A stretch of DNA of 64,000 nt from Cytophagales bacterium WSM2-2 (GCA_015472025.1 BNHL01000001.1:3026001-3090000); one strand, 5' to 3'; shown: positions 49,101-57,381, numbered from the stretch's first letter. Notes: generated by a model from the letters alone, not told the origin. Program-made: numbers and translations.

Positions 49101-49108
49101 TATCTTTG
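49101..49108 (+). promoter_or_regulatory. -7 box TATCTTTG for the TPR-CHAT gene
   Basis: A perfect TAnnTTTG match 17 nt before the ATG at 49126. It supports the start at 49126 rather than the TTG at 49087. Confidence 0.5.
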
Positions 49109-49125: not shown

Positions 49126-52100
49126 ATGAGAAAACTATTGTCTGTAGTTGATTATCGAGGAGTTATTGGCCTATTGCTGACTCTTTTACTGTCAATTAAT
49201 ATAAATGCCCAGGAGTGGAAGGCGACCTACAACCAGGCACTGGAAAAATATAAAGCTGAAGACTATCAGAATTCACTCGCACTGGCTAAGGATGCGTTCG
49301 AAAAATCGAGTGCCGAGACCATGGTTAATCGTGCTTATATCCTGCAGCTTATCACCTCGAATTGTTCTGCTCTTGAAGACGCTGATACAGGATTGAAATA
49401 CAGTGATCAGGAAATCAGTTTTTTCCAGCAGGCAGAAGGTTTAAAAAGTAAGTCGCTTGCCGAGGCTATGAAAAAGCAAATTATTTTCATGCAGCAAAAA
49501 GGCCAAATCAAGCAGGCTCTTGAAAAATCACAAACAGCACTTAAATGTTTTTATGAAAGCTACGGCAGCACTGCTTCGCCAACAGTCTTATTTACGATTA
49601 TCCGGGGAGACCTTTTTCTTGCCACAGGTGATTCCACAAATGCAAAAAAAATATGGAATGAAGGCCTTCTGTCCCTAGCTGCCCGCGATGAAACAAAAGA
49701 CGAGTACAAGGACTTATTGTACAACACTGCAGCTTTGGAAGAGAACCTCAAAGATTATTCTGGAGCCGAAAAAAAATATGTTCAACTGAAATCTTTCCTG
49801 GAGAAAGAAGGTCTTACGAGCGACCCACTGTATGAAGAAGCAAAAAAAGCAGCTCCCCGGTTGCAGGGTAAGCTACCTACTGCCAGTGATGGGTTGGAAC
49901 CGCTTCTAAAAAACGCCCTTGCGCTGCAAGCCCAGCGACAAACGGCAAAAGCAATTGAGGTTTACAGACAGTCAACCGACCTGGCAATTAAGAACAATGC
50001 CAAAGACAAAACTGCTTTTTCGCTCTTCTTCAACTATTCAAGATTATTGATCGATAATGATAACATGCAGGCAGCCAGTGAGCAACTTCAGAAGGCAAGG
50101 TCACTGGCATCAACACTGTTTAGCAATACTGCGTTTGAAAATTTTCTTATCGAACTGACAACTGCCGACTTATACCTCGCGCAAGGTCAAAAGGATAAAG
50201 CGGTGACTCAGTATAATTCTCTTGTGCCCAGATTGAGCCGCGATATTGCGATGCTGGGTTCTTCTTATGTCGTTGCTTCTTCCAATCAATTATTGAATAA
50301 CGACAAACCGAGGGCTGCTGTAAACCTGCTCCGACCATTGCTTTGCTGTTTGGAGGAAAATGGTGCGTTGAAAGAGTCAACGATGAAAGTGGCGTTGACT
50401 TACAGCGAAGCGATGTTAGAATTGAACAGACCTGATTCTGCTATCCTGTTTTTAAATCAGCCCTTTATGAAGGGGCTTCCGATAGAATTAAGAAAAGTTG
50501 AGGCATTGCAGGCAAATGGACAGTGGACTACTGCCCGCGAAAAACTAATTGCAGTGGAGGCGCAAGCAACTACAGATCAGTCAAAAGGAGATGTGAATTA
50601 TTACCGGGCGCGACTGGAGCACAAAATGGGAGACTACGCGCTGGCGGAAAGTTATTATCAAAAAGCGATTGGATACTATGAAAAGGCAAACCCTGCTGAT
50701 TCCTGGCAGGCGTCCAATTCCCTGGCCACACTTTATTCAAGGCTTGGCAACTTTGAAAAATCGGAAAAGATAATTAACGAGGTACTCGGAAAAGTGCCGA
50801 CAACAAATCCGCTTCATACTTCATTGCTTGGAAATCTTGCAGCCAACTATATTGAAGAGGGACAGCTTCAAAAAGCGAGAGCCATCCAGGAGAAGATAGT
50901 GCAACTGGAGAGAGAGACCGCAGGTGACAATCATCCCGATTATGCACTTGCTTTGAGTAACCTCGCTGCAGTTTGTCAGAAAGAGGGAAAATATTCCGAA
51001 GCGAGAAAGCTCATGGAAGATGCGTTACGTATTTCAAAAAGTAACTTCGGTGATCAAAGTATAGACTACGGTCTGAAAGAATCCAACCTCGGCACTATTT
51101 TGAAAGATATGGGCGACTACGGAAACGCCCGTGCCGGACTAGTTCACGCAGAAAAAGTATTGGCAGAGAAATTAGGGAAATCGCACCCCGACTATGTGTC
51201 ATGCGAATACAATCTGGCACTGGTACTTCAGAGAACTGGTGATTTGCCCCAGGCAAAGCCACTCATGCAACATCTTACGGGATTCTATCAGAAGCAGATA
51301 CTGGATTTCTTCCCGGCTATGAGTGAACAAGAGCAAGTGGCCTTTTTCAATAAGATCAATAAAGCAGTTCAGGATTATCAACAGTTTGTGATAGATGTAG
51401 CAAAGGAAAACCCTGAGCTGATCGGGCAGCTTCTTGATTTTCGGCTGGCAACAAAGGCACTGTTGCTGAACTCGTCAGTAAAAATTCGTGAGCAGATTTT
51501 AAACGGGGGAGACCAGAAATTGAAAAGTCAGTTTGTGCAGTGGCTTTCACTTAAAGAAGAATTGGGGAAACTTTATAACCAGGAGAAAAACAGCCGGAGC
51601 CTCAATGAAATAACTCGCCTGGAGAGCCAGGCAAATGAATTGGAAAAAAATATCTCAGGCAGTTCCTCAATATTTAAGAAAGGGAAGGATGAACGAACTG
51701 TCAATTGGAAATCTGTTCAGTCGATGCTCCAGCCCGGTGAGGCTGCAGTAGAAGTCATACGTGTGAAGGCTTCGGGGAAAACTGATTCCATTACTTATGC
51801 GGCAGTGATCGTTAAAAAAGACAGCGATCCCGTTTTGAAGTTATTCAGACGAGGTAAGAATATGGAAGGTCGCGAATTCAGTTATTACAGAAATAGTATT
51901 GTGTTTCGCCTTGAGGATGATCGCTCCTATGATGTCTTCTGGAAGCCTGTTGAGTCTGTGTTGAAGAATATTGCCCGAATCTACTTTTCAGCCGATGGTG
52001 TTTACAACAAAATAAATCTGGTCACCCTTCACGATCCTGAAAAGAATGAGTACTTAAGCAAGCGTTACCAGTTTGTTCTTGTTTCAAACCTGAAAGACCT

Positions 52101-52839
52101 TGCGAGTGAGGGCATTTCAACTGGTGAAAAAGGAAAGGCAGCTCAACTTTTTGGGCCGATTAATTTTGGTCAAAATACACAACCATCAAACCGGATTCTT
52201 CGGTCGGCCATTTCTGGAATCTCATCGTTGCCGGGAACTCGTGTTGAAATTGAACGGATAGATCAACTGCTTAAATCAGCGCAGTGGTCGTCATCATCGC
52301 GAATTGAAGTTCAGGCTTCAGAGCACAATATAAAATCGTTGCAAAGTCCAGCTATTCTGCACATTGCAACGCACGGCTTTTTTATTGAAACAGATGACGA
52401 ATCACAAGTGGTGATGGCCGGACGAATGGAGAGTGAAAATCCACTTTTACGCTCGGGGCTGATCTTCAATGAAGTCTCTGCTCCAGCCAACGGTGAAGAC
52501 GGCCTGCTCACATCTTACGAGGTGAAAAATCTCAATTTTGATAAAACAGATTTGGTTGTACTCTCTGCATGCGAGACAGGTTCAGGTGAAATCAGGAATG
52601 GCGAAGGTGTTTATGGATTGCAACGTGCGTTTTTGATTGCGGGAGCAAATAGTGTTTTAATGAGCCTTTGGAAAGTAGATGATGAGGCGACACAGGAGTT
52701 AATGGTGCTCTTTTATCAAAATCTTTTGAAAGGAGGGAATAAATCAGCAGCCCTACGATCAGCTCAAGCGGAATTGACCACGAAATATCCTGATCCCTTT
52801 TTCTGGGGAAGTTTTGTCTTAATCGGTAAACCCAACTAA
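49126..52839 (+). CDS. Exported TPR-CHAT caspase-like protein
   Basis: 1237 residues. A signal sequence (YRGVIGLLLTLLLSININAQ) indicates export. Residues about 30-750 are tetratricopeptide repeats (for example DYALALSNLAAVCQKEGKYSEARKLMEDAL). The C-terminal CHAT domain (about 880-1237) keeps the caspase-like dyad: His1083 in IATHGFF and Cys1149 in LSACETGSGE, then GEGVYGLQRAFLIAGANSVLMSLWKVDDEATQELM. CHAT proteins are cysteine proteases related to caspase and separase (for example Csx29). The stop is 3 nt before the PD40-OmpA gene. Confidence 0.9.
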   Translation: MRKLLSVVDYRGVIGLLLTLLLSININAQEWKATYNQALEKYKAEDYQNSLALAKDAFEKSSAETMVNRAYILQLITSNCSALEDADTGLKYSDQEISFFQQAEGLKSKSLAEAMKKQIIFMQQKGQIKQALEKSQTALKCFYESYGSTASPTVLFTIIRGDLFLATGDSTNAKKIWNEGLLSLAARDETKDEYKDLLYNTAALEENLKDYSGAEKKYVQLKSFLEKEGLTSDPLYEEAKKAAPRLQGKLPTASDGLEPLLKNALALQAQRQTAKAIEVYRQSTDLAIKNNAKDKTAFSLFFNYSRLLIDNDNMQAASEQLQKARSLASTLFSNTAFENFLIELTTADLYLAQGQKDKAVTQYNSLVPRLSRDIAMLGSSYVVASSNQLLNNDKPRAAVNLLRPLLCCLEENGALKESTMKVALTYSEAMLELNRPDSAILFLNQPFMKGLPIELRKVEALQANGQWTTAREKLIAVEAQATTDQSKGDVNYYRARLEHKMGDYALAESYYQKAIGYYEKANPADSWQASNSLATLYSRLGNFEKSEKIINEVLGKVPTTNPLHTSLLGNLAANYIEEGQLQKARAIQEKIVQLERETAGDNHPDYALALSNLAAVCQKEGKYSEARKLMEDALRISKSNFGDQSIDYGLKESNLGTILKDMGDYGNARAGLVHAEKVLAEKLGKSHPDYVSCEYNLALVLQRTGDLPQAKPLMQHLTGFYQKQILDFFPAMSEQEQVAFFNKINKAVQDYQQFVIDVAKENPELIGQLLDFRLATKALLLNSSVKIREQILNGGDQKLKSQFVQWLSLKEELGKLYNQEKNSRSLNEITRLESQANELEKNISGSSSIFKKGKDERTVNWKSVQSMLQPGEAAVEVIRVKASGKTDSITYAAVIVKKDSDPVLKLFRRGKNMEGREFSYYRNSIVFRLEDDRSYDVFWKPVESVLKNIARIYFSADGVYNKINLVTLHDPEKNEYLSKRYQFVLVSNLKDLASEGISTGEKGKAAQLFGPINFGQNTQPSNRILRSAISGISSLPGTRVEIERIDQLLKSAQWSSSSRIEVQASEHNIKSLQSPAILHIATHGFFIETDDESQVVMAGRMESENPLLRSGLIFNEVSAPANGEDGLLTSYEVKNLNFDKTDLVVLSACETGSGEIRNGEGVYGLQRAFLIAGANSVLMSLWKVDDEATQELMVLFYQNLLKGGNKSAALRSAQAELTTKYPDPFFWGSFVLIGKPN

Positions 52840-52842
52840 CCT

Positions 52843-54840
52843 ATGCGGAAGTTCTATAGCACGGCTTTAATTCTTTTAATCTTCTACGCGACTGATATAA
52901 GTGCCCAGGATATTTTGGACAAGAAGGCTGTCCCGGGCCTAAGCAGCGCCAAACTCACCGAGTTTTCACCTACCATAAGCGCTGATGGCAAGACGATCAT
53001 CTTTGAATCGAGTGTGGATCAGGACAAAGGGTGGGAACTGTTTGAATCGCACCTGGAGAATGGCACCTGGAGTACACCGGTTCCGCTCAAGAGTATTAAC
53101 GAAAAATGTCAATTCATTGCCGGTCCAAGTATTAGTTTCGACGGTAATGAACTTTTCTATACCGCCTTCGTGGAGAACAGCTCCAAGACTGAAGACATTT
53201 ATTACTCCGAACGCACAGGGGATAACACCTGGAGCGAACCAAAAAATATAGGAGCGCCAATCAATACAGACGACAATTACGAGGGATTCCCTTCCATTTC
53301 TTCGGATGGAAAAAGCCTGTATTTCATCCGGCTGAACCTGGAAAAAGAAACGGATAAGAAAAGCAAGGAGCCGTGCTTTGTTATTTATGTTTCCAAAAAG
53401 CAAACGGATGGAACCTGGGGAGAGCCAGTGCCTCTTCCCGCACCGATCAACACGGGCTGTGAGCGCGATCCGAAAGTCATGGCTGATAACCACACGCTTA
53501 TTTTTTCTTCGATTCGCGAAGGAGGTCTCGGAAAGTACGACATGTATCAGACAATCAGGCAAAAGGACGGTTCATGGTCAACTCCGGTCGCTTTGGATTT
53601 TATTAATTCTCCCGACAACGATCAGTCTCCATGTATCTCAGCTTCCGGTGACATCATGTTTTACTATACCAAGAATGATATCTATTCAGTGGCCATACCG
53701 GACAAGTACAAACAGATGATCAACGCGGTAGTCACAGGTTATGTGCGTGAAAGTAAAAATCGCAATCATGTGCTGTCTAATATCCTGGTCACAAATCTGA
53801 GGACTAATGAGTCTTTCACAACAACGAGCAGCGAGGCTGACGGAGAATATAGTCTTGTGCTCAATGCGGGACAGAAATACACCGTCATTTTTGATAATGA
53901 AAATTACTTTCCCGATACGTTAACACTGGATTTTGAAAATCAAAAAACCTATCAACTTCAACAAAGGGATATTACGTTAAGAGCAGCGCTTGAAACTAAG
54001 ATTGATGTGGTTGACAAGGACCTGAAGTTTCGGATTTCGGCTATGATGCAAATTCAACAAGAGGGCACTTCGATTTTTATGGATTCAGTCCGCGAATTGC
54101 AATTGCCAAAACAAATGAGGTTTGATGCTCCGCGCAATTACGTCATTCAGGTTTCGAAAAAGGATTACGTCCCGGTGAAGGAGAACTGGACCTTTAAGGA
54201 AAAAAGAATAGCCCCCAACAGAAATGTGATTGTGCAACTTGAACATGAGCGTGTAGAGTTTGTTCCGCAGGTTGTAAATGCTGCTACTAAACAAAAGACA
54301 AAAGTTAAGGTGTATGCCAACAATAAAGGCGTAGAAGAAGTAATTATTGCTGAAGCCGGAGAGAAGATGTTACTGCGAAAAGGCGACAAGTACCAGGTAG
54401 CGACCTCAAGTGAGGAGGGTTACTTCTTTTCTTCCAAGGAAATTACAGCAGGAGAAGTGCACTCGGTTGAACTTGACGTTGTGCCCATCGAAGTTGACGG
54501 TAAGCTGGCTTTGAGAAATATCACTTTTGAAATTAATTCAGCTGAACTTAAAGAAAGTTCCATATTCGAGCTTGATCGGGTGGTTGAAATGATGAAAGTG
54601 AATCCCAAAGTGTATATGGAGATATCAGCACACACGGACGATATCGGTGATGATGCCTCCAACCTTAAACTTTCTGACAAACGGGCCCGGAGCGCTTGGA
54701 ATTATCTCATTAATAAAGGGATCAGCAAAGACCGGCTGGTACCAAAAGGTTATGGCGAAACAAAACCACTTAATCCCAACGACTCAGACACGGGCCGCGC
54801 GTTAAACCGCAGGGTTGAGTTGCGTGTGTTGAAAATCTGA
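52843..54840 (+). CDS. PD40-OmpA outer membrane protein
   Basis: 665 residues: signal peptide; five WD40-like PD40 repeats over about 40-290 (FSPTISADGKTIIFESS, AGPSISFDGNELFY, GFPSISSDGKSLYFIR, QSPCISASGDIMFYY); a carboxypeptidase-regulatory-like segment near 300-375; and an OmpA C-terminal domain (ITFEINSAELKESS, ISAHTDDIGDDASNLKLSDKRARSAWNYL, PKGYGETKPL). It would be bound to peptidoglycan in the periplasm, near the outer membrane. It is co-transcribed with the TPR-CHAT gene and may be its substrate or scaffold. Confidence 0.9.
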   Translation: MRKFYSTALILLIFYATDISAQDILDKKAVPGLSSAKLTEFSPTISADGKTIIFESSVDQDKGWELFESHLENGTWSTPVPLKSINEKCQFIAGPSISFDGNELFYTAFVENSSKTEDIYYSERTGDNTWSEPKNIGAPINTDDNYEGFPSISSDGKSLYFIRLNLEKETDKKSKEPCFVIYVSKKQTDGTWGEPVPLPAPINTGCERDPKVMADNHTLIFSSIREGGLGKYDMYQTIRQKDGSWSTPVALDFINSPDNDQSPCISASGDIMFYYTKNDIYSVAIPDKYKQMINAVVTGYVRESKNRNHVLSNILVTNLRTNESFTTTSSEADGEYSLVLNAGQKYTVIFDNENYFPDTLTLDFENQKTYQLQQRDITLRAALETKIDVVDKDLKFRISAMMQIQQEGTSIFMDSVRELQLPKQMRFDAPRNYVIQVSKKDYVPVKENWTFKEKRIAPNRNVIVQLEHERVEFVPQVVNAATKQKTKVKVYANNKGVEEVIIAEAGEKMLLRKGDKYQVATSSEEGYFFSSKEITAGEVHSVELDVVPIEVDGKLALRNITFEINSAELKESSIFELDRVVEMMKVNPKVYMEISAHTDDIGDDASNLKLSDKRARSAWNYLINKGISKDRLVPKGYGETKPLNPNDSDTGRALNRRVELRVLKI

Positions 54841-54873: not shown

Positions 54874-57381
54874 ATGCCATCCGATCTTTCATTTGAATTC
54901 AATCCTGGCGAAACTCTTTTCGCAGAACTTGTTATCCCGGTTCCGGTAGCCAAACTTTTTACGTATCGTGTACCGGCATTGCTGAACGAAAAGATAAAGA
55001 TCGGGCAACGCGCCATTGTTCAGTTTGGTGCAAAAAAAATCCAGACGGGAATTATTCTGAATGTTCACAACAATCCACCGCGGGATTATGAGGCCAAGTA
55101 TATTCTGGAGTTGCTTGACGATAATGAAATCGTCTACAGTCAACAGTTGCAGCTCTACCAATGGATTGCGGAATATTATATGTGTACTCTCGGAGAAGTG
55201 GTTAATGCTGCTTTGCCTTCCGGACTGAAATTGTCAAGTGAGTCGATTGTACAGATCAATCCGCGATTTGATCTGGAAACTTCCGAGTTTGATTTTTCGG
55301 AGAAGGAGAAAATACTCTTGCAAAGATTGAAAGATGAACCCCTTGGCTACTCGGCCATCGTGAAAATTGTAGGGTCAGCTAAAATCTATAACCTGTTAAA
55401 ATCTCTTTCTTCCAAGGAGGCAATTATCATTTTTGAGCAAGTCAAGGAAAAGTACAAGCCTAAAACGGAAAGGCGTATTCGTTTAGCGGGCAACTTAACT
55501 TCAAGAAAAGCGCTTGAGCTTCTTTTCGAAACGATCGCCAAAAAACCTAAGCAGGAAGCGCTGTTGCTAAAGTATCTTCAATTTGTTCCTGTGTTCACAG
55601 ATGCGTCTTTGAATGAAAAAGGCTTAGTCAAATCATCTTTGGTGGATGAAGAGACGTCAGACTCCGTCATTCGTACGCTGGTGAAAAACAAAGTTCTCGA
55701 GGAATTTGACATCACGGTACCGCGTTTTGGTTTTGACGATCCGCAGCAAGAGTATCCCATTTTATTGAGTGAGACGCAGGAGAAGACGCGTAATTCGATT
55801 ATTAAATTCTTCGAAGAAAAGAACACAGTCTTGCTGCATGGTGTTACCGGCAGCGGCAAGACGGAAATATATATCGACCTGATCAAACGAGCGCTAGATG
55901 GGGGCAACCAGGTTTTGTACCTTCTCCCCGAGATAGCCCTTACTACGCAGATCGTTTTACGCCTCAAAAAAATATTTGGCAGTGCTCTGGGGGTTTATCA
56001 TTCCAAGTTCTCGGACAATGAGCGTGTGGAAGTTTGGAACGGTGTTCTCTCGGGTAAATTCCGGTTTGTGATCGGTGTTCGCTCTTCTGTCTTTCTCCCG
56101 TTCGACAATCTAAGCCTGATCATTGTGGATGAGGAGCATGACTCTTCGTACAAGCAGCAGGATCCGTCACCACGCTACCACGCTCGCGATGTGGCGCTGG
56201 TAATCGCGCAGATGCATCACGCCAAAGTGATCCTGGGCAGTGCAACTCCGTCAGTTGAGTCATATTACCATGCTACTGCAGGCCGCTACGGTTTGGTTAC
56301 GCTTAAGGAACGCTTCGGAACATCCACATTGCCAGCAATTCTTTTTGCAGACTTGGCTTCTGAAAAAAAGAGAAAAACGAATAAAGGTGAATTTTCTTCT
56401 TTGTTGCTCAACGAGATCAATGAGGTAACATCGAAGAAAGAACAAGTGATCCTTTTTCAGAACCGCAGGGGATATGCTCCTGTAGTTCAATGTGAAGATT
56501 GCGGGTGGGTACCTAAATGCATTAATTGTGCAGTAAGTCTCACCTACCATCAATTTCGGCACGCCATGGTGTGTCATTATTGTGGTTATCGTGAACCTCT
56601 GCCAAGTCAGTGTCCACAGTGTACCTCCAAAAGAATTTTAACAATTGGCTACGGCACGGAGAAACTGGAGGAGGAGCTGAAACTTTTTTTTCCTGAAGTC
56701 AGAACCGAACGCATGGACCTCGATACTACGCGTACCAAGTCGGGGTATGAAGATATTATCACCGGTTTTGAAAGCGGAGAGACTGGAATTTTAGTTGGCA
56801 CACAAATGGTAACTAAAGGCCTCGACTTTGACAATGTAGGTCTTGCAGGTGTTTTTGATGCCGACAGGCTCATGCATTTCCCGGATTTTCGTTCGCATGA
56901 ACGAGCCTTTCAACTAATTACGCAAGTGAGTGGCAGAGCAGGCCGGAGAGAGAAGCAAGGCAAAGTGGTGATCCAAACATCCAACCCGAAACATCACCTG
57001 TTTTCTTTTGTGACTGATAATGACGTCACAGGTTTTCTCAAAGATCAATTGGCCGATCGTCAACATAACTTTTATCCGCCCTTTGCACGTCTTATCGAAA
57101 TCACTTTTAAGCATACAGACCGGAAGATAGTCCGTGAATTTGCCGAGACGATAACAGAGCAGTTCAAATCAAAATTGAAGGGAATGAAAATACTGGGACC
57201 AGGCGAGCCAATGATCTCCAAGATCAGAAATGAGTTCTTGCTTCACATCCTTTTGAAAATCCCGCGTGATCAGGGGCATCTTGCTGAAATTAAAAAACTG
57301 CTTCAAGACAACGCCAGTCATTTCCAGCTTCAGAAAGAATTCAGGAATGTGAAAGTAGTATTCGATGTCGATCCGGTGTAG
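54874..57381 (+). CDS. priA: Primosomal protein N' (PriA helicase)
   Basis: 835 residues. N-terminal 3'-DNA-binding domain (AELVIPVPVAKLFTYRVP, QRAIVQFGAKK); Walker A HGVTGSGKTEIY; Walker B IIVDEEHDSSYKQQDPSPRYHARDVA; the zinc-binding cysteine cluster (CEDCGW, CINCAV, CHYCGY, CPQC) and motifs V and VI (GTQMVTKGLDFDNVGL, QVSGRAGRREKQG). It restarts stalled replication forks. It lies 33 nt after the PD40-OmpA gene but has its own -7 box. Confidence 0.95.
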   Translation: MPSDLSFEFNPGETLFAELVIPVPVAKLFTYRVPALLNEKIKIGQRAIVQFGAKKIQTGIILNVHNNPPRDYEAKYILELLDDNEIVYSQQLQLYQWIAEYYMCTLGEVVNAALPSGLKLSSESIVQINPRFDLETSEFDFSEKEKILLQRLKDEPLGYSAIVKIVGSAKIYNLLKSLSSKEAIIIFEQVKEKYKPKTERRIRLAGNLTSRKALELLFETIAKKPKQEALLLKYLQFVPVFTDASLNEKGLVKSSLVDEETSDSVIRTLVKNKVLEEFDITVPRFGFDDPQQEYPILLSETQEKTRNSIIKFFEEKNTVLLHGVTGSGKTEIYIDLIKRALDGGNQVLYLLPEIALTTQIVLRLKKIFGSALGVYHSKFSDNERVEVWNGVLSGKFRFVIGVRSSVFLPFDNLSLIIVDEEHDSSYKQQDPSPRYHARDVALVIAQMHHAKVILGSATPSVESYYHATAGRYGLVTLKERFGTSTLPAILFADLASEKKRKTNKGEFSSLLLNEINEVTSKKEQVILFQNRRGYAPVVQCEDCGWVPKCINCAVSLTYHQFRHAMVCHYCGYREPLPSQCPQCTSKRILTIGYGTEKLEEELKLFFPEVRTERMDLDTTRTKSGYEDIITGFESGETGILVGTQMVTKGLDFDNVGLAGVFDADRLMHFPDFRSHERAFQLITQVSGRAGRREKQGKVVIQTSNPKHHLFSFVTDNDVTGFLKDQLADRQHNFYPPFARLIEITFKHTDRKIVREFAETITEQFKSKLKGMKILGPGEPMISKIRNEFLLHILLKIPRDQGHLAEIKKLLQDNASHFQLQKEFRNVKVVFDVDPV

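Follow-up and report, generated by a model that had tools for sequence, protein, structure and literature searches.

In Cytophagales bacterium WSM2-2, a gene for a predicted exported TPR-CHAT caspase-like protease is followed directly by a gene for a PD40-OmpA protein, and proteolysis in the cell envelope is probably, as judged from sequence, the point of this two-gene unit. Many Cytophagales relatives retain the pairing, and in other lineages the same partner has a protease of another caspase family beside it. New here is that the operon comes in variants, designated types A to D, among which the protease family is exchanged. The window, which is the whole stretch of 64,000 nucleotides analyzed, carries a type A pair with the following features:

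49126..52839, + strand, TPR-CHAT caspase-like protease, predicted exported, 1237 aa (Pfam CHAT and TPR matches; fold matches)
49126..49212, + strand, CHAT signal peptide, residues 1-29, likely cleavage near ININAQ-EW (hydropathy and charge)
51928..52830, + strand, CHAT domain, residues 935-1235 (Pfam PF12770)
52372..52374, + strand, codon of catalytic His1083, motif IATHGFF (sequence; kept in 46/46 readable copies)
52570..52572, + strand, codon of catalytic Cys1149, motif LSACETG (sequence; kept in all CHAT copies compared)
52840..52842, + strand, intergenic gap between the CHAT and OmpA genes, 3 nt (sequence)
52843..54840, + strand, protein with PD40 propeller, CRD and Ig-like beta domains and OmpA domain, 665 aa, predicted exported (Pfam, model, Foldseek)
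54523..54810, + strand, OmpA-like domain, residues 561-656 (Pfam PF00691)

The gene order agrees with the earlier note, which had placed a TPR-CHAT gene 3 nt before a PD40-OmpA gene: the CHAT stop codon (52837-52839) is followed by the ATG of the OmpA gene at 52843, and the two products have 1237 and 665 residues. The PF12770 match at residues 935-1235 of the first protein is strong (E=1e-64; 219 bits vs a gathering score of 24), and many TPR matches lie N-terminal to it. The CHAT domain stops 2 residues short of the C-terminus, which leaves no room for a T9SS C-terminal sorting domain, and the protein was therefore rejected as a T9SS substrate. At its N-terminus, MRKLLSVVDYRGVIGLLLTLLLSININAQ-EW, hydropathy and charge indicate a Sec-type signal peptide, with n, h and c regions arranged as in signal peptide I substrates. 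Signal peptides were called throughout by this simple n/h/c rule, which is passed by 31 of 32 complete CHAT proteins, 34 of 35 OmpA proteins and 22 of 22 third proteins (described below); by this rule the signal peptide claimed for the window CHAT is supported. No further segment of the CHAT protein is hydrophobic enough for a membrane helix (best 19-residue mean hydropathy past residue 35, 1.08). Upstream, TATCTTTG at window positions 49101-49108, 17 nt before the CHAT start codon, fits the Bacteroidota -7 element (TAnnTTTG); no -33 element is present at the usual spacing from it, and the match may be due to chance.

The model of the CHAT protein (residues 40-1237) has a pLDDT of 85, with low-confidence loops around the active site. 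Over the TPR and CHAT regions its best fold match is Csx29 (Z 23.6, rmsd 12.8, 563 residues aligned), and separase (Z 19.5) and DdvA (PDB 8rot/8rw5; Z 18.9, residues 375-1195) match across the same two regions; Foldseek returned the same three groups. The window protein shares with Csx29 the combination of TPR and a CHAT domain with a His/Cys dyad, in a protease that is co-encoded with partners. However, Csx29 is cytoplasmic and serves as an RNA-guided partner to Cas7-11, whereas the window protein has a signal peptide, an OmpA partner and no Cas gene. A CRISPR/Craspase origin was rejected, given that there are no Cas neighbors, no Cas7-11/Csx30 linkage and no PADLOC match for the CHAT gene. 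Separase likewise joins a helical repeat to a CHAT/caspase-like fold, but it is eukaryotic, cleaves cohesin and lacks an envelope partner.

The 665-residue partner carries its own signal peptide by the simple rule (...DISAQ-D). In its model (pLDDT 86.6) the beta domains are separate units strung together by joints, and Foldseek matched TolB propellers, Ig-like stacks, peptidoglycan-binding OmpA/OprF domains (the peptide-bound 3td5 among them) and, in addition, the C-terminal domain of PorE, 6top. The CRD-like beta domain corresponds to a CarboxypepD_reg match below the Pfam cut-off, and the PF00691 match reaches 76 bits vs 27. Within the OmpA domain, Asp599 and Arg614 are invariant in the alignment of 19/19 family members; they occupy the positions of the diaminopimelate-binding Asp and Arg in known OmpA domains. 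The pair is flanked in the window by an MgtC-family gene and priA, and the same flanks surround the locus in two relatives (L040 and L041). priA (window 54874-57381) lies on the same strand and begins 33 nt past the OmpA stop, an order kept in both relatives. A second OmpA-family protein of ~680-690 aa with a lipoprotein-like start is encoded near the type A pair at two other loci (L043:2680-4719 and L045:11935-14010).

The linkage is conserved. In 29/29 loci the CHAT gene precedes the OmpA gene, the gap ranging from -31 to 95 nt, and a wider set, which overlaps this one in that several genomes were reached by both searches, contains 47 loci with a CHAT gene directly upstream of an OmpA-family gene, all within the same range of gaps. 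Among the closest CHAT relatives (37-59% identity), the OmpA gene is directly downstream in every locus. The control consisted of 31 further CHAT genes from this genus, drawn from genomes that include the window's own and each viewed with 9-18 kb of surrounding sequence. None of them (0/31) has this OmpA family as its downstream neighbor, and chance neighborhood was rejected on these counts. The dyad is equally constant. The intact His1083 and Cys1149 claimed for the window protein are present, and the dyad is kept by all CHATs of the first set (37/37), whether free or next to OmpA, and in 46/46 readable OmpA-adjacent CHATs of the larger set, one further copy being cut by a contig end. This conservation makes a pseudo-protease unlikely. 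Thus none of the outcomes that the earlier note had named as contrary to its proposal (no signal peptide, no linkage, His/Cys lost in most homologs) occurred.

One element of that proposal is not supported in the form given, namely export as the distinguishing mark of the window CHAT. Secreted TPR-CHATs without an OmpA gene are common in the genus; signal peptides occur in unpartnered TPR-CHATs (L036-L038, L053), and most TPR-CHATs examined are predicted to be exported. The solved anti-sigma factor DdvA, too, matches the window model across TPR and CHAT. Since every sampled genome of the genus has TPR-CHAT matches (58/58, with five in the window's own genome, G000), the CHAT gene alone is unremarkable. 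The OmpA gene, by comparison, is present in 10 of the 46 good genomes of the genus (47 were sampled, of which 46 have a completeness of 90% or more and no more than 5% contamination), and the remaining genomes lack it at the threshold used. A type A or B CHAT adjoins it in 8 of these 10, which are all the genomes where the contig permits a check; in the other two (G053 and G056) the contig ends at the OmpA gene or close to it. The special feature of the unit is instead its conserved, predicted wall-binding partner, together with the repeated recruitment of caspase-like proteases beside OmpA. Free CHAT genes for exported proteins of ~940 aa also occur side by side in tandem pairs (L264, L265, L266, L273, L281).

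Four arrangements of the operon were found:

Type A (the window's type): CHAT (~1240-1300 aa) and OmpA
Type B: CHAT (~1330 aa), OmpA and a third exported protein (~740 aa)
Type C: OmpA and the third gene, then an exported TPR-Peptidase_C14 caspase, no CHAT (family f19 and one f15 genome)
Type D: OmpA, the third gene and a Reg_prop/Y_Y_Y/SpoIIE phosphatase (six loci in Bacteroidales and Chlorobiota MAGs)

Types A and B are both carried by Chryseotalea sanaruensis and Shiella aurantiaca. The third protein of types B to D (e.g., L049:11660-13900; alignment A3) matches no Pfam or NCBIfam family and has no convincing PDB relative (best E 0.046); a 28%-identical relative of it is encoded, unlinked, in the window's own genome (G000:C1:4904942-4906147). 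At all ten type C loci (10/10), the TPR-Peptidase_C14 protein after the third gene is predicted to be exported and has its His and Cys intact. Two of the type C loci encode an exported WD40-Peptidase_C14 protein (~955 aa) after the TPR-C14 gene (L146:15043-17904, + strand; L147:1055-3922, - strand). An exported ~514-aa protein with a weak DUF4384 match is encoded upstream of OmpA in type C (L145:10169-11710, - strand; L146, L147, L166-L170), where it holds the place that CHAT has in types A and B. The genes of the type D loci (L240, L247, L248, L259-L261) are separated by small gaps. Three loci of the same broad OmpA clade have no output gene in view (L174, L180 and L196, the latter two on short contigs), and more distant OmpA relatives (e.g., L163, L175, L230-L239) have neither the third gene nor a protease. 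Across the phylum, the full-length relatives found with the OmpA profile all scored below those in the order; a scan of genome contigs then found ~30%-identical OmpA relatives in Bacteroidales and Chlorobiota MAGs.

Quick trees of the OmpA and CHAT proteins, with SH-aLRT support only, point to repeated assembly of these units. In the OmpA tree, type A is a single clade (99), and the f15 C14 locus (L171) is sister to two f22 CHAT loci (99). The CHAT tree joins the CHATs of family f22 to free CHATs of ~1400 aa (98) and separates them from those of types A and B, which indicates that CHAT joined the module at least twice. The predicted C14 caspases likewise joined the OmpA/third module. Because a caspase-like protease has been joined to the same core more than once, proteolysis is the likely output, and OmpA with the third protein probably acts as anchor or sensor, OmpA thus being more than a mere substrate. 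That a Peptidase_C14 caspase can take the place of CHAT next to these OmpA/third genes supports proteolysis as the putative shared function. Moreover, the outputs that accompany the OmpA/third core are unrelated and at times missing altogether, so we read the core as anchor and input, and the protease as output.

The explanation we prefer, to which we give about an even chance, is that the pair is an envelope module in which a PD40-CRD-OmpA anchor or sensor works with an exported TPR-CHAT protease; that the two genes form one operon is part of this explanation and shares its standing. The signal peptides and the OmpA domain point to export and wall binding. The PD40-CRD-OmpA protein would be exported and its OmpA domain would bind peptidoglycan, while its propeller and Ig-like stack would sense or dock something periplasmic. 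The exported TPR-CHAT protein would be a cysteine protease of the caspase/separase type, with a TPR solenoid that either reads the anchored partner or is held in place by it. As for activation, physiological signal and substrate, we infer that an alteration of the wall or outer membrane may free or activate the CHAT active site, which would then cut an envelope protein. The OmpA core would thus serve as a reusable input and the protease as an exchangeable output.

The main rival takes the OmpA protein itself as the direct CHAT substrate, with a cut, for example between propeller and OmpA domain, detaching the propeller from the wall by analogy with the cleavage of Csx30 by Csx29. The co-encoding of protease and neighbor is reminiscent of Craspase, in which Csx30 is the substrate (PMC11106740), and the separate beta domains with joints in the model would suit such a cut. 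However, the OmpA/third pair persists with a SpoIIE phosphatase, without a protease, and with two protease families, which would be unexpected of a dedicated substrate, and no conserved candidate site was seen in alignment A1, although cut sites are hard to predict. Cleavage of the OmpA partner, for which the earlier note suggested a test, is not supported in that form; an anchor or sensor fits better than a dedicated substrate, and we consider the substrate reading unlikely.

Somewhat less probable again is a role in ordinary envelope building or outer-membrane integrity, where the OmpA protein would be a scaffold like PorE or CHU_0125 and the protease would mature or recycle envelope proteins constitutively. 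The partner has the PD40-CRD-OmpA layout of PorE of the T9SS, whose C-terminal domain is among its fold matches, and shows likeness to both families below their cut-offs. CHU_0125 of Cytophaga hutchinsonii is a Cytophagales envelope protein with PD40 and OmpA_C-like domains, and its loss affects crystalline cellulose degradation (PMC5891637). The same paper names TPR in CHU_0125 and mentions neither a caspase nor a CHAT protein (PMC5891637). However, no T9SS gene adjoins the window OmpA gene, and its NCBIfam scores are so far under the cut-offs (165 vs 600 for PorE; 222 vs 620 for CHU_0125) that membership of either family was rejected. The patchy presence of the OmpA gene within one genus (10/46 genomes) also speaks against housekeeping.

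A sensor or scaffold whose protease activity goes unused is a doubtful alternative. It would make the protein comparable to the TPR-CHAT portion of DdvA, an anti-sigma factor to which the window protein is matched in fold and whose C-terminal part is periplasmic. Yet DdvA is a transmembrane protein, whereas the window CHAT has no membrane segment beyond its signal peptide, and two things argue for a working protease: the His and Cys are invariant, and the C14 caspase that takes the place of CHAT also has its dyad intact. Finally, a periplasm-based cell-death or anti-phage system, in line with the known CHAT proteases of defense systems and with the patchy presence, is highly improbable, given that the CHAT gene has no PADLOC model, that the partner matches only ZorB-type OmpA-domain models, and that the neighbors are the MgtC-family gene and priA, retained as flanks in L040 and L041.

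Beyond the envelope module itself, a wider reading is possible but tentative: a wall-anchored PD40-OmpA core, often with the third exported protein, may be wired to exchangeable CHAT, C14 or SpoIIE outputs as a previously undescribed envelope signaling system of Bacteroidota, whose protease versions would act as a periplasmic caspase switch, turning a wall or outer-membrane signal into irreversible cleavage. No published description of a CHAT or caspase unit with PD40-OmpA was found in the open-access literature, where most subscription journals are missing. The prokaryotic caspase homologs (metacaspases) include the type C proteases, and a 2012 survey of these homologs catalogs TPR and WD40 architectures and possible signal peptides; CHAT is not mentioned in the survey, nor is an OmpA partner in the passages covered (PMC3501461).

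Among bacterial TPR-CHAT proteases, Csx29 is the best studied, and it has a defense role in the cytoplasm. The unit described here places a predicted caspase-like protease outside the cytoplasm, beside a predicted wall-binding partner and with the protease family swapped in other lineages, and its cultured hosts include Fulvivirga, Marivirga, Reichenbachiella, Marinoscillum and Chryseotalea. If the proposal is true, the unit would allow regulated cleavage of the caspase type to be tested in a bacterial envelope.
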